DNA of 64,000 bases from Desulfosporosinus sp. FKB (lineage in GTDB: Bacteria; Bacillota; Desulfitobacteriia; Desulfitobacteriales; Desulfitobacteriaceae), in contig NZ_NADJ01000040.1 of NCBI RefSeq assembly GCF_002196705.1, positions 1 through 64,000 of the forward strand. The letters run 5' to 3'. A model generated the notes under the pieces. The model saw only the letters and a list, made by a program, of their open reading frames with translations. It searched no databases and was not told where the DNA came from. Below are positions 9,973-60,775 of this stretch, in pieces. Numbering within the stretch: the first letter of the stretch is position 1; the number at the start of each line of letters is the position of its first letter. The position numbers were made by a program, and so were the translations under genes.

Positions 9973-10053
9973 CTTTTCACCTCCTTTACAGAATACCCAA
10001 ATTTATAGGACCGTAGTCCTCGACTCAACAAACTCTGCCAACTCTTCGCAGCA

Positions 10054-10076
10054 GACGGGGCACATTTATGTGCTGT
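10054..10076. repeat. Dispersed hairpin related to the 143-bp repeat
   Basis: GACGGGGCACATTTATGTGC followed by TGTC, an imperfect stem with a TT loop, nearly the same as the hairpin heading each 143-bp unit at 16370-16970. The bases after it (CGCTATCTCCCGTC) also resemble that unit. It lies between ffh and rpsP. Confidence 0.6.
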
Positions 10077-10109
10077 CCACCCGCGCTATCTCCCGTCGTT
10101 CCCCGTCCC

Positions 10110-16239: not shown

Positions 16240-16362
16240 AAAGGGGTCGGTTTTATTGTTGCTAAACCAATCCCTATAATATAACTCAAAAAACTCCATT
16301 ATATTCAGTCAGGAGAACTCTCTCTACTTACCTTGTCCTCTCACTGTCCCCTGGTCCGTTCC

Positions 16363-17075
16363 AAAACAGACGGCGCACATTTATGTGCCGTCACCCCAAA
16401 TTCCGTCTCCCGTTTTCGTTTCCTAAGACGACTCCAGGCAAGGACGGATTCCTTAACTCCTTCTTTATTTGAACCAAACAAAAGAGAGCTATCTCCCGAT
16501 CCACCCAGAACAGACGATGCACATTTATGTGCCGTCACCCCAAATTCCTCTCCCGTTTTCGTTTCCTAAGACGACTCCAGGCAAGGACGGATTCCTTAAC
16601 TCCTTCTTTATTTGAACCAAACAAAAGAGAGCTATCTCCCGATCCACCCAGAACAGACGGTGCACATTTATGTGCCGTCACCCCAAATTCCTCTCCCGTT
16701 TTCGTTTCCTAAGACGACTCCAGGCAAGGATGGATTCCTTAACTCCTTCTTTATTTGAACCAAACAAAAGAGAGCTATCTCCCGATCCACCCAGAACAGA
16801 CGGTGCACATTTATGTGCCGTCACCCCAAATTCCTCTCCCGTTTTCGTTTCCTAAGACGACTCCAGGCAAGGATGGATTCCTTAACTCCTTCTTTATTTG
16901 AACCAAACAAAAGAGAGCTATCTCCCGATCCACCCAGAACAGACGGTGCACATTTATGTGCCGTCACCCCAAATTCCTCTCCCGTTTTCGTTTCCTAAGA
17001 CGACCCGTGGACAAGGACGGATTCGTTAAATCTTTCATCATTTGACCCAAACAAAAGAATTATATCCCCGATTCG
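16363..17075. repeat. Tandem array of 143-bp repeats with hairpin heads
   Basis: The motif GCACATTTATGTGC recurs at 16375, 16519, 16662, 16805 and 16948: spacings of 144, 143, 143 and 143. Units 2-4 differ at only one or two positions (for example C/T in AAGGA(C/T)GGATTCC); unit 1 has one extra G and a different left flank; unit 5 decays after about 16999. Each unit begins with a hairpin, GACGG(T/C)GCACAT-TT-ATGTGCCGTC, with one bulged base. Open frames cross the units, but 143 is not a multiple of three, so the frame changes each unit and coding is unlikely. The low divergence suggests recent amplification. Confidence 0.95.
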
Positions 17076-17130
17076 CCCAAAATTCCGTCTCCACCGTTTC
17101 TCCCGTCCCCCGACCCAAGTCCGAGACGCA

Positions 17131-17330
17131 GCATGATACGGGAGTGAGGTCTTTACGTGAGCAGATTAGCAAACTCCGTGAAAGCGACCCCAGACACGGG
17201 GCGGTGCACAGGGATGTGCACCGCCGCCATAGCGCCATGGACGGCGCTTATGGCGGGAACCCCGCTCCCCAAAGAAAAAGCTTGAGCGGTAGTTTGCTCT
17301 GCGAACGTATGACCGAGCGACGTATCATGC
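17131..17330. repeat. 200-bp imperfect palindromic element overlapping the smc stop
   Basis: Ends are exact inverted repeats, GCATGATACG (17131-17140) and CGTATCATGC (17321-17330). Further in, GCAGATTAGCAAACT matches AGTTTGCTCTGC inverted with a 2-3 base difference. The centre holds two strong stems: GGCGGTGCACA-N4-TGTGCACCGCC (17200-17225) and GCCATAGCGCC-N6-GGCGCTTATGGC (17226-17254). The smc TGA (17325-17327) lies inside the right terminal repeat. As RNA it would fold extensively and could also act as the smc terminator. It contains no credible ORF. Resembles a non-autonomous palindromic element; no family recognised. Confidence 0.85.
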
Positions 17331-20300
17331 AAGTCTCTCATTCAACCGTACCGAAAGCAGCTTAGATACCCCGCTCTCCTCCATGGTAATCCCATACAAT
17401 ATGTCCGCCGATTCCATAGTCCCTTTTCTATGCGAAATAACCACAAATTGCGTAGAATCAGATAAGCGATGAAGATACTGGGCAAACCTCTGTACATTAG
17501 CATCGTCGAGAGAAGCTTCAATTTCATCCAAAATACAAAAAGGGCTGGGTTTTACACGCAAGAGGGCGAAAAGGAGAGCTATTGCTGTTAAGGCCCGTTC
17601 ACCCCCGGAAAGCAGCGAAAGCAGCTGGGGTTTTTTCCCGGGTGGCTGAGCGATAATCTCCACACCTGTTTCTAATAATTGATCAGGTTCAACTAAAGAT
17701 AGTTCGGCATTGCCGCCAATAAAAAGCTCCTTAAAGACTTCTTGAAAGGCCGAGTTTACAGCATTAAAACTTTCTAAAAAGCGTACACTCATCGTTTCAT
17801 CAAGCTCATCAATCAATTGACGCAGCGTCTGATCAGCCTCAATTAAATCCCTTTGCTGAGCCAACATAAATTCCTTTCGTTCACGCAGCTTAGGATATTC
17901 TTCAATAGCCGCTTGATTAATCGGGCCAAGTTCCTCAATGCGGCGTTTTAATTCTTGAACTCTTTTGCCGATAGCTGTCCTCTCTTCTTGGGTAAGATAA
18001 GTCACAGCTTCTTCCCATTGAAGTGAAAACTCCTCTTCAAGCCGGGTTAGTCCTGACTGGCACTCTGTTTCCCAACGAACAATCCGAAGATCATTGGCAT
18101 GTAAACGTTGTTCATTTGTGTGGACTTTTTGACTCTGAGCATGCATTTCCTGTTCAAGTGCCTGGGCTTGAGCGAATAGGTCTTCCTTATCCTGTCTTAG
18201 CTGCATCAGAGAGTATTGCAAAGACTCCTGAGCCTTGCCATGGCTTTCCAGACTCTCGTTTAATTCCAGTTGTTCTTTGTCAACCGTCTCAAGGTTATGC
18301 TGGAAGGTCAGGAAGTTATGTTTTTTCTGCTTAAGACTTTGTTCACTTTCTCTGAAGACTTCTTTTTCCTGCCCGATTTGCTCTGAGCACTGCGCCAGTT
18401 CTTGCTCCCACTTGGCTAAGCTTACCTTTTCCTGGGTCAGCTGCTCCCTGCCTTGATTGAGTTCGTCGGCAGCTGTTTGAGCTTCTTGTTCTCGTTGATT
18501 AAATTCTTCGCGTATCCTGCGGGAATTATTTTCTGCGTTTTCAAATTGCTTCGTACTATTTTGCAAATTCAAGGTAATTTCGTCAATCTCCAGCAAGATT
18601 CCCTTTTTACGCTGATCTAACCCACGCAAATCGTTACTGATGCGCCGAATCTGGCTTAAGGAATTGTCATTGGCTGTTTTAAGGATGACCTGGCGTTCTT
18701 TTTCCTGGCGCTGCTTCTGAATTAAGGTTTCCAGATTCTCTTGAAGCTCCCTTTCTTGACTTTCCAGCTTCTGAGATTCCTGTTCTTTTTCCTTATAGTT
18801 TTTCTCTAATTGGCTTAATTCAGAACCCAGTGTTTCTATCTCACGCGAACGCCCCAGCAGATTTCCGCCTTTGCGATGAATGCTGCCGCCGGTTAAGGAA
18901 CCACCCGGGTGTACTTGGTCTCCTTCTAAAGTAACAATCCGCAGCTTGTACCCGGAAATTCGCGCGATCCGTGTTGCAGCATCCATATCTGTAACAACCA
19001 GGATACGACCCAACAAAAATTCAACAGCTTTTTGGTATTTGGGGTCATACCCTACCAAATCTACGGCAATTCCAATAAATCCGGGGTCATTTCCCACAGC
19101 TTTGGCGACACTCATCCTGTTGCCTTGAATTACATCCAAGGGCAAGAAGGTAACTCTTCCTAACTGATGGGCTTTTAAATATCCTATCGCGGTTTTAGCA
19201 GCTTGTTCATTTTCAGCGACAACATTTTGCAAGCCCGCTCCGAGGGCTGTTTCTATGGCAACTTCATGGTTCGCCTGTACAGATATCAAATCGGCCACAG
19301 TACCGCAGAGTCCAGATCCTTCGCGAATTCCTTTTTTCTTCGCAAGCATCACCTCTCGGACTCCGCGTTGATATCCCTCCAAAGAATCTTCCAAGCTTTG
19401 CAAGGCGTGTAACCGGGCGCGAGTTTGATCCATTCTTGTACGATGCCGCTGCAATTCACTCGTTTTATCTTGGCGCAATCCCTTTAGTTTTTCCCACTCC
19501 GACTGAAGTTGGACTTTTCCCCGCTGAAAAGCTTCTGCTTGCTCCTGCAAACGGAGAAGTTCCTGCTCTTGTGCTTCCGCTTCCTCCGTCATGGTATGAA
19601 GTTCATGTTCCTTATTAGCTTGCTCACGCTGTATTTGCAGAAGCTGCTGCTCCAGTGAGGCCAGGGAATGTCTCATACCCGTAAGAGCATTCGAACAATT
19701 CGCTTGCTCTGTCATCGCTTCAAAGAGATCGGCTTTTAAACGGTCGATATCTTCCCGTAGTTCATGATCCCGGGCATTTGCTAATTTAGACTCTTGCTCA
19801 ACAACCTTTTGCCGGGATTCCTCTACCGTTAAGCTTAGAACTGCTTGTTTTGCCGTCAAGGTTTGCTGACGCTGCTCTAATTGCCGAAGTTTATCTTCAC
19901 CTTCATTAATCTCCTGGGTTAAACGTTCAATTTGCTCTTTAAAATTATTTGATCGTTCCAAACGCAAGCTTTGCTCATGTTTTACAGCATTATAGGCCTG
20001 TTCAGCCTGGAATGCTTCTGCCTGTTTGGCCTGAATTTCTTCCTCAATCGCTTTAAGCTTAATCTTTTGCTCCAGATCTTGACTTTCTATTTGGCTCAAA
20101 AGAGTCTGAGCTTCTACTAAGCCTTGTTTCATGGTTTCAGAATCCTGCGTTGCCGCCGCCAGCTTCTGTTTGACATCGGCAACATCTAAAACGACAGCTT
20201 GAATTTCCAAGGATTTTTGTTCAGCCATAAGTGCCAGGCTTTCTTCGGCCACTTGGGCTTGGGCAGCCAGAGGAGTCAGTTGTCCCTCAATCTCTTGGAT

Positions 20301-60653: not shown

Positions 60654-60674
60654 CTTTACAGCAAAAAAACCTTT

Positions 60675-60775
60675 AAACCTTTAAATTAGTCCCGTGAGGC
60701 TAAGAAGGAAATGGCGGACCATGAATGTATATGGACACCTCTTTCTTGCTTGCGGGCAGGAAAGAGGTTTTTTAG
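60675..60775 (+). promoter_or_regulatory. PyrR-type pyrimidine attenuator of uraA
   Basis: AGTCCCGTGAGGCTAAGAAG (60688-60707) closely matches the PyrR anti-antiterminator consensus AGTCCAGAGAGGCTGAGAAG. Downstream ACCTCTTTCTTGC and GCAGGAAAGAGGT (60737-60768) form a terminator followed by six T. With high UMP/UTP, PyrR binding should favour termination, lowering uracil permease. The gene for PyrR is not in the window. Confidence 0.88.

Follow-up and report, generated by a model that had tools for sequence, protein, structure and literature searches.

What are the near-identical repeats that lie between the genes for SMC and FtsY in Desulfosporosinus sp. FKB, and to what larger structure do they belong? 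The window, i.e., the whole stretch of DNA that was analysed, comprises 64,000 nucleotides (contig NZ_NADJ01000040.1, positions 1 to 64,000). The answer that appears probable to us, if not strongly so, is that the repeat array is the amplified flank module of a composite foldback element with BOX-like architecture, and that the core of this element is a candidate CsrA-binding RNA, presumably spread by mobilisation. Taken alone, the array is an ordinary VNTR; the adjoining element is more interesting.

TRF detects a tandem array at 16361-17058, with a period of 143, 4.9 copies and 96% matches. The palindrome GCACATTTATGTGC starts at 16375, 16519, 16662, 16805 and 16948 (spacings of 144, 143, 143 and 143), which confirms the five hairpin copies at a 143-144 period reported in the first-pass annotation. 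The same palindrome occurs at one further place within the window, 10060; when up to two mismatches are allowed on both strands, it is found at 6 places, or 12 matches, against 0.38 expected, and 12 matches were reached in none of 100 shuffles. The middle three units had been called almost identical, and indeed unit 3 is the same as unit 4 (143/143), with 2 differences separating unit 2 from unit 3. Mutual identity of units 1-4 is 97-100%, with 140/144 aligned positions matching between units 1 and 2. Unit 5 has diverged from the other units to 83-85% identity; its first 70 nt resemble units 2-4, and the remainder is 71-72% like units 1-4. This is the highest unit number among the arrays of the element that were examined, and it is known from one draft assembly.

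Both flanking ORFs, which we take from their protein sequences to be smc and ftsY, lie on the minus strand, in the order smc-array-ftsY, with the smc stop at 17325. This agrees with the position given in the first-pass annotation, which had missed a 216-nt foldback core that separates the array from the smc stop codon; because of this core, the feature extends rightwards to 17337. Repeated 61-aa ORFs are present inside the array, and their frame shifts between successive units. A coding array was considered and rejected, as the frame shift and the 143-base period both fit non-coding DNA, in agreement with the original proposal. A search of this genome with the array gave no second full-length match at E <= 0.001, and three short ones of 28-44 nt. 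In an Rfam search of the array, a match to ylbH scored 18.3 bits and a second one 14.6, below the cut-off of 50, and both were treated as chance. A literature search gave no related description of a tandem repeat between smc and ftsY. All features are listed in the table.

Features of the repeat array and the composite element (coordinates are positions in the window)
Feature	Position	Strand	Description and basis
Unit 1	16361..16504	+	144 nt, adjoins ftsY
Unit 2	16505..16647	+	143 nt
Unit 3	16648..16790	+	143 nt
Unit 4	16791..16933	+	143 nt
Unit 5	16934..17082	+	Diverged edge copy; end set by us, TRF end 17058
Module A hairpin, unit 1	16369..16392	.	GACGG..CACAT..ATGTGCCGTC, 2-nt bulge; paired in predicted folds
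Module A hairpin, units 2-5	16513-16536, 16656-16679, 16799-16822, 16942-16965		Sequence and predicted folds
AYGGAY hairpin aaggaCGGATtcctt, unit 1	16440..16454	+	Read from sequence
AYGGAY hairpin, unit 2	16583-16597	+	GGA-hairpin search; 3/200 unit-2 shuffles had one
AYGGAY hairpin, unit 3	16726-16740	+	GGA-hairpin search; 8/200 unit-3 shuffles had one
AYGGAY hairpin, unit 4	16869-16883	+	From identity of units 3 and 4
Composite-element core	17122..17337	+ (GGA strand, antisense to smc and ftsY)	Long stem, two GGA-loop hairpins; 216 nt
RF01731 TwoAYGGAY match	17154..17309	+	Rfam, 40 bits; gathering score 43
Core hairpin 1, ggcggtgcacaGGGAtgtgcaccgcc	17200..17225	+	GCACAGGGATGT inside matches RUACARGGAUGU 11/12
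Core hairpin 2, agcgccATGGACggcgct	17231..17248	+	GGA-hairpin search
Element end read in frame by smc	17325..17337	-	GAGACTTGCATGA gives last SMC residues and TGA stop
Lone module A-like hairpin	10052..10082	+	After ffh-like ORF (name presumed; stop 10110); the gap there holds this hairpin only

FtsY of this genome is 99% identical to FtsY of Desulfosporosinus acididurans M1, and the genome is therefore that of a close relative. At the same locus D. acididurans has two diverged units, 77-87% like the units here, while the ftsY-side flank is identical at 241/253 positions; with 97-100% identity among units 1-4, these figures bear out the earlier suggestion of recent amplification or homogenisation. 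When the first 70 nt of each unit are compared with D. acididurans unit 1, unit 1 is 92% identical and units 2-5 are 85-86% identical. Unit 5 resembles the D. acididurans units no more than the interior units do, and its second half is about 70% like every sequence compared, so that the expected age gradient is seen at one array edge only, on the ftsY side. The sequences fit duplication or homogenisation of the array interior after the split from D. acididurans, with the older edge on the ftsY side only. Among other species, this locus has 3 units with another spacer sequence in Desulfosporosinus sp. PR, and 3 units at 82 and 85 bp in SbF1, so species differ in unit number: there are 5 here, 2 in D. 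acididurans and 3 in each of the other two. These counts depend on the search, the strict module A pattern missing copies that BLAST finds (1 instead of 2 in D. acididurans, 2 instead of 3 in sp. PR).

On an FtsY tree with labels that we assigned, the element lies between smc and ftsY in 14 rows (some of them judged by partial core matches), 13 rows are without it and 1 is not assigned; four changes are needed to explain the distribution. In L073 the contig ends inside the element. No element match was found at six smc-ftsY loci of the Desulfosporosinus clade (L072, L074, L075, L076, L078 and L079).

The general plan of the element, as read from a consensus of 43 copies (the unique ones among 51 full-length copies of 79 found), consists of module A, which is a bulged hairpin, a variable spacer, and a core of about 222 nt with imperfect inverted ends. 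Conservation in the consensus drops sharply at both element ends, and the terminal inverted repeats, GGGACGCAGTGTGACAC.../...GTGTCACACAAGTCCC, are imperfect and of the type seen in MITEs. One of the ends, with up to two mismatches, occurs at 14 places in genomes G000 and G008; of five that were read, one is a full copy, two are remnants and two look like chance matches. With a query made of array and core, at least 23 of the 40 genomes searched (this one counted) gave a match, and those listed all belong to a single genus. By consensus search, with partial loci included and segments merged by eye, there are 11 element loci here, 11 in G008, 8 in G007, 3 in G003 and 3 in G015; several loci are common to more than one species. 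The upstream genes, judging by their C-terminal sequences, probably include smc, pyrG, deoC, cdd, rsmE, hisF, phoH, leuS, engB and ffh. In G008 (L186), the ORF ahead of one core has a C-terminus similar in kind to that of the ffh-like ORF that precedes the lone module A-like hairpin in the window. In the gap after hisF in the same genome (L204, G008:C3:983476) there are about 16 nt of the element end and a partial copy that supplies the stop; this remnant is a deletion or excision scar.

At other loci, partial 5' copies stand before a full core at spacings of about 80 to 320 bp; they comprise module A and the spacer, frequently joined by about 60-110 nt from the 5' part of the core. The likeness of the 143-bp unit to element sequence was assessed with shuffles: beyond module A, its likeness to the stretch before and into the window core was reached by 12/500 of them, its likeness to the genus consensus by 278/500, and the likeness of unit 5 to element sequence by 403/500. 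The 118 nt of the unit outside module A thus do not seem convincingly core-derived, and the idea that the unit is a decayed 5' half of the core, which finds little support in these figures and none in unit 5, was set aside.

The core is mostly seated at or near stop codons. In the sense of the preceding gene, it starts with GGGACTTGTGTGACAC. At 59 of 66 distinct junctions an ORF on the opposite strand stops no more than 20 nt from the core end, and the other 7 lack an ORF longer than 100 aa there; in 35 the stop codon ends at -2 to +1 of the core end, and in 15 the ORF runs into the element and stops at the TGA or TAA of the element itself, at +13/+14, smc of the window being one such case. 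Among 5280 random positions from the same loci, drawn anywhere on both strands and not restricted to intergenic DNA, 18 were abutting, 3 fell at +13/+14 and 154 were within 20 nt. Orthologous loci are counted per species, so that junctions and cores are not independent and represent fewer separate events. In an earlier junction table of 65 rows, one flank was too short, and four rows had no long opposite-strand ORF beside the end. TAG accounts for 25 of the 35 abutting stops; among long ORFs, this codon is the stop of 17 of 68 across six large loci and of 31 of 116 across the named smc loci. Six smc genes without a detected element end, by eye, in TGA (3), TAA (2) and TAG (1). The terminal 13 or so nt of the element (GGGACTTGTGTGA) are often tandemly duplicated at the junction, with the first copy serving as the gene stop (for example at L070, L051, L046 and L064).

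Two accounts of this seating may be given. In E. coli, ribosomes repress terminators close behind a stop codon (PMC4824070); a strong hairpin just behind a stop may therefore be tolerated, and selection may explain part of the pattern. Alternatively, the core may insert at TAG into the lagging-strand template while this is single-stranded. Of the 25 element loci in four complete or near-complete genomes, which have dnaA at about 1.7 kb, 23 are co-oriented with the replication fork, as are most genes, if the terminus is assumed to be mid-chromosome.

The predicted structure of the core is well supported by covariation. In alignment A1, which comprises 38 of 40 listed cores (L089 and L085 were left out, as were the longer copies that carry an additional hairpin or an insertion), 97.4% of cells pair as compared with 90.7% in shuffles, and both partners have changed in 26 of the 64 pairs as compared with 12.4; shifting the pairing partners lowers pairing to 26-46%. 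The structure was predicted from the same alignment and is favoured by it, and related copies may exceed shuffles without any structure. GGA is found in both apical loops of all 38 aligned cores of standard length. Strand preference was examined in the 44 cores that have both ends and measure 200-245 nt, a range that excludes longer copies in which a further hairpin or an insertion is present: 57 shared pairs gave 15 G-U and 21 A-C, i.e., no strand preference, which argues against selection purely at the RNA level. Alignment A1 gave 26 G-U against 16 A-C, an excess that leans to the plus strand by construction, because the A1 structure was predicted on that strand.

The two core hairpins look like CsrA binding sites, judging from their loops. 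The SELEX consensus of CsrA is RUACARGGAUGU (PMC7492729), and on the plus strand of the 38 cores it is matched at 12/12 positions in 11, at 11/12 in 8, at 10/12 in 4 and at 7-9 in 15. The minus strand gave at most 9, and 760 mononucleotide shuffles at most 10, so that a predicted recognition site with 11 or 12 of 12 matches is present in half of the aligned cores, while in 15/38 the match is no better than in the minus strand or shuffles. In 12/38 cores, the A of loop 1 is followed directly by GGA, the intervening base being absent. Hairpin 1 of the window copy has a sequence like the consensus with GGA in the hairpin loop, as a predicted CsrA site should. Read on the plus strand, the core can be considered a candidate for a CsrA-binding RNA of the TwoAYGGAY kind. 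No conserved promoter before the core was found in the 43-copy consensus; this and the antisense position of the GGA strand relative to the preceding genes count against a role as RNA. The csrA gene is present here, and the search found it in 35 of the 40 genomes. G023 (94% complete) has, among the matches listed, no csrA, no TwoAYGGAY and one element DNA match; G005 and G012 (79% and 67% complete) have no csrA match, yet the element is matched several times in them; in G015 there are three matches to csrA and only fragments of the element.

TwoAYGGAY, RF01731, was rated in its discovery screen as probably RNA and probably not cis-regulatory (PMC2864571), and Gardner and Eldai proposed it as a CsrA-binding family (PMC4333381); the portions of the literature on the family that were available give no proven function. 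The core shares with it a long stem and two apical hairpins with GGA loops, the stems covarying and GGA being present in 38/38. The window copy, at 40.0 bits, stays below the gathering cut-off of 43, while other copies in the genus score 43 to 55 bits, and the family is above cut-off in at least 19 of 40 genomes, own included. The GGA strand here is antisense to the preceding genes. In this genus TwoAYGGAY appears as an interspersed composite repeat with a flanking array, located mostly against stops between co-directional genes, a form that those portions of the TwoAYGGAY literature do not describe. Loci L061 and L039 (G000:C35:549550-549994) carry two tandem TwoAYGGAY copies, 284 bp apart and above the Rfam cut-off, which belong to another subtype with sequence unlike the main element. 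In other genera (L033, L057, L198, L194) the family has the long stem and the GGA-loop hairpins, with little shared sequence by eye.

Several other families of small repeats offer partial parallels. BOX elements of Streptococcus pneumoniae have the composition boxA-boxBn-boxC, a composite repeat with one module in variable tandem number (PMC3049150). The element described here likewise combines fixed parts with a variable tandem module, a likeness of architecture only; its variable module is at one flank and not between end modules as in BOX, and its core mostly ends at stops. ERIC and NEMIS are also small foldback elements in transcribed regions, likened here by description, and the orientation of ERIC affects the stability of upstream mRNA (PMC2229807); the parts of their descriptions that were available do not mention stop-codon abutment or GGA-loop hairpins. 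Module A resembles REPs in being a short hairpin repeated in the genome, and CGTC-tagged REPs, as far as the source was available, likewise occur without a transposase (PMC3733652). In REPs, however, the tag is unpaired, whereas the CCGTC of module A is paired with GACGG in predicted folds. Two Y1 genes were found in this genome (G000), C22:36133 (266 aa) and C35:501612, and neither is flanked by module A (for the latter, by eye). Mobilisation of module A by a RAYT is not supported, as the 266-aa gene is flanked by a different palindrome, GGACCGTCC. Such GGACCGTCC/GTGTCA palindromes beside the RAYT-like Y1 gene are located at L155:1490-1530 and 2685-2715 (G000:C22:34500-38500), and are also seen by eye inside some element arrays (L069, L066).

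The sequences show an element made of (A-spacer)n followed by the core of about 222 nt, the latter lying at or near a stop codon in one orientation at most junctions examined, and an array that is a tandem amplification of the A-spacer module. In the explanation that we prefer, slipped replication or unequal recombination, promoted by the hairpins, would add and remove units, and homogenisation would act inside the array; the array would therefore be a VNTR-like by-product and not a machine of its own. The spread of the core to stops, often TAG, would be best explained by mobilisation, as with other small foldback elements; no transposase could be assigned to the element, and several of its loci are shared between species, both of which count against mobility.

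Several other readings of the array have to be weighed against this one. The hairpins might act in the smc-ftsY mRNA as an attenuator or insulator that cuts read-through, with ftsY using its own promoter, and the insulation of transcription raised in the first-pass annotation survives in this form as possible but rather unlikely. Units 1-4 each carry a single terminator-like match on the sense strand, four in all compared with 1.2 (sd 1.2) in shuffles, yet these matches represent one weak 5-bp stem repeated, with which another fold competes, and by eye the stem is not kept in D. acididurans. A promoter-like site does precede ftsY on the sense strand (16326-16298), but such sites are no commoner than in shuffles (1 vs 1.8). 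The longest ORF within 1.6 kb downstream is co-directional with the gene before the element at 53 of 60 loci, which speaks for this reading. It is hardly credible that chromosome organisation near smc involves the repeats, for instance as a protein-binding array: the array does lie beside smc, but the same composite element occurs at 11 loci in this genome and after many other genes, so the tie to smc suggested earlier is not supported, and the six clade members mentioned above have the two genes and no element match between them. An assembly artefact, with the true copy number lower or higher than five, is very unlikely. Any two of units 2-4 show 2 differences or none over 143 bp, which is hard for short reads, and there is one assembly; on the other side, units 1 and 5 can be told apart from those in the interior, and this locus has 2 or 3 units in independent assemblies of other species.

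The boldest reading makes the array part of a CsrA sponge, in which plus-strand RNA would bind CsrA through the core and the hairpins of units 1-4, and unit number would tune the capacity. A hairpin search in the window found GGA hairpins on the plus strand only, one each in units 2 and 3 (aaggaYGGATtcctt) and two in the core, and none on the minus strand; this, the proposal of Gardner and Eldai, as far as their paper was available (PMC4333381), and the consensus match in many cores all speak for such a role. Against it, the AYGGAY hairpin was not found in unit 5 nor in either D. acididurans unit, nine other arrays have a GGA hairpin on the plus strand in three cases (one each) and on the minus strand in three (one to four), and the core lacks a conserved promoter. 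A sponge of this kind is clearly unlikely in our judgment, and we keep it as the boldest and not the best reading, because the hairpin is absent or inconsistent in unit 5, D. acididurans and other arrays. In its fullest form, the element would be an interspersed CsrA-binding family that inserts precisely, in antisense, at the stops of operon genes, often TAG; the array would multiply its GGA hairpins, and the dispersed antisense RNAs would jointly form a sponge with a capacity set by repeat number. This larger scheme is an improbable one too.

In some genomes, the element loci crowd into the origin-proximal left part of the chromosome: 11/11 in G008 lie within about one fifth (C3:3.80-4.86 Mb), 6/8 in G007 at C1:3.89-4.48 Mb, and 3/3 in G003 at C1:5.19-5.46 Mb; G015 does not follow. 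A csrA gene is in or near the element-rich zone in these three genomes, at 4.01, 4.09 and 5.11 Mb (G008, G007 and G003, respectively). Elsewhere in the window, a PyrR binding site (RF00515) scores above cut-off at 60674-60775.
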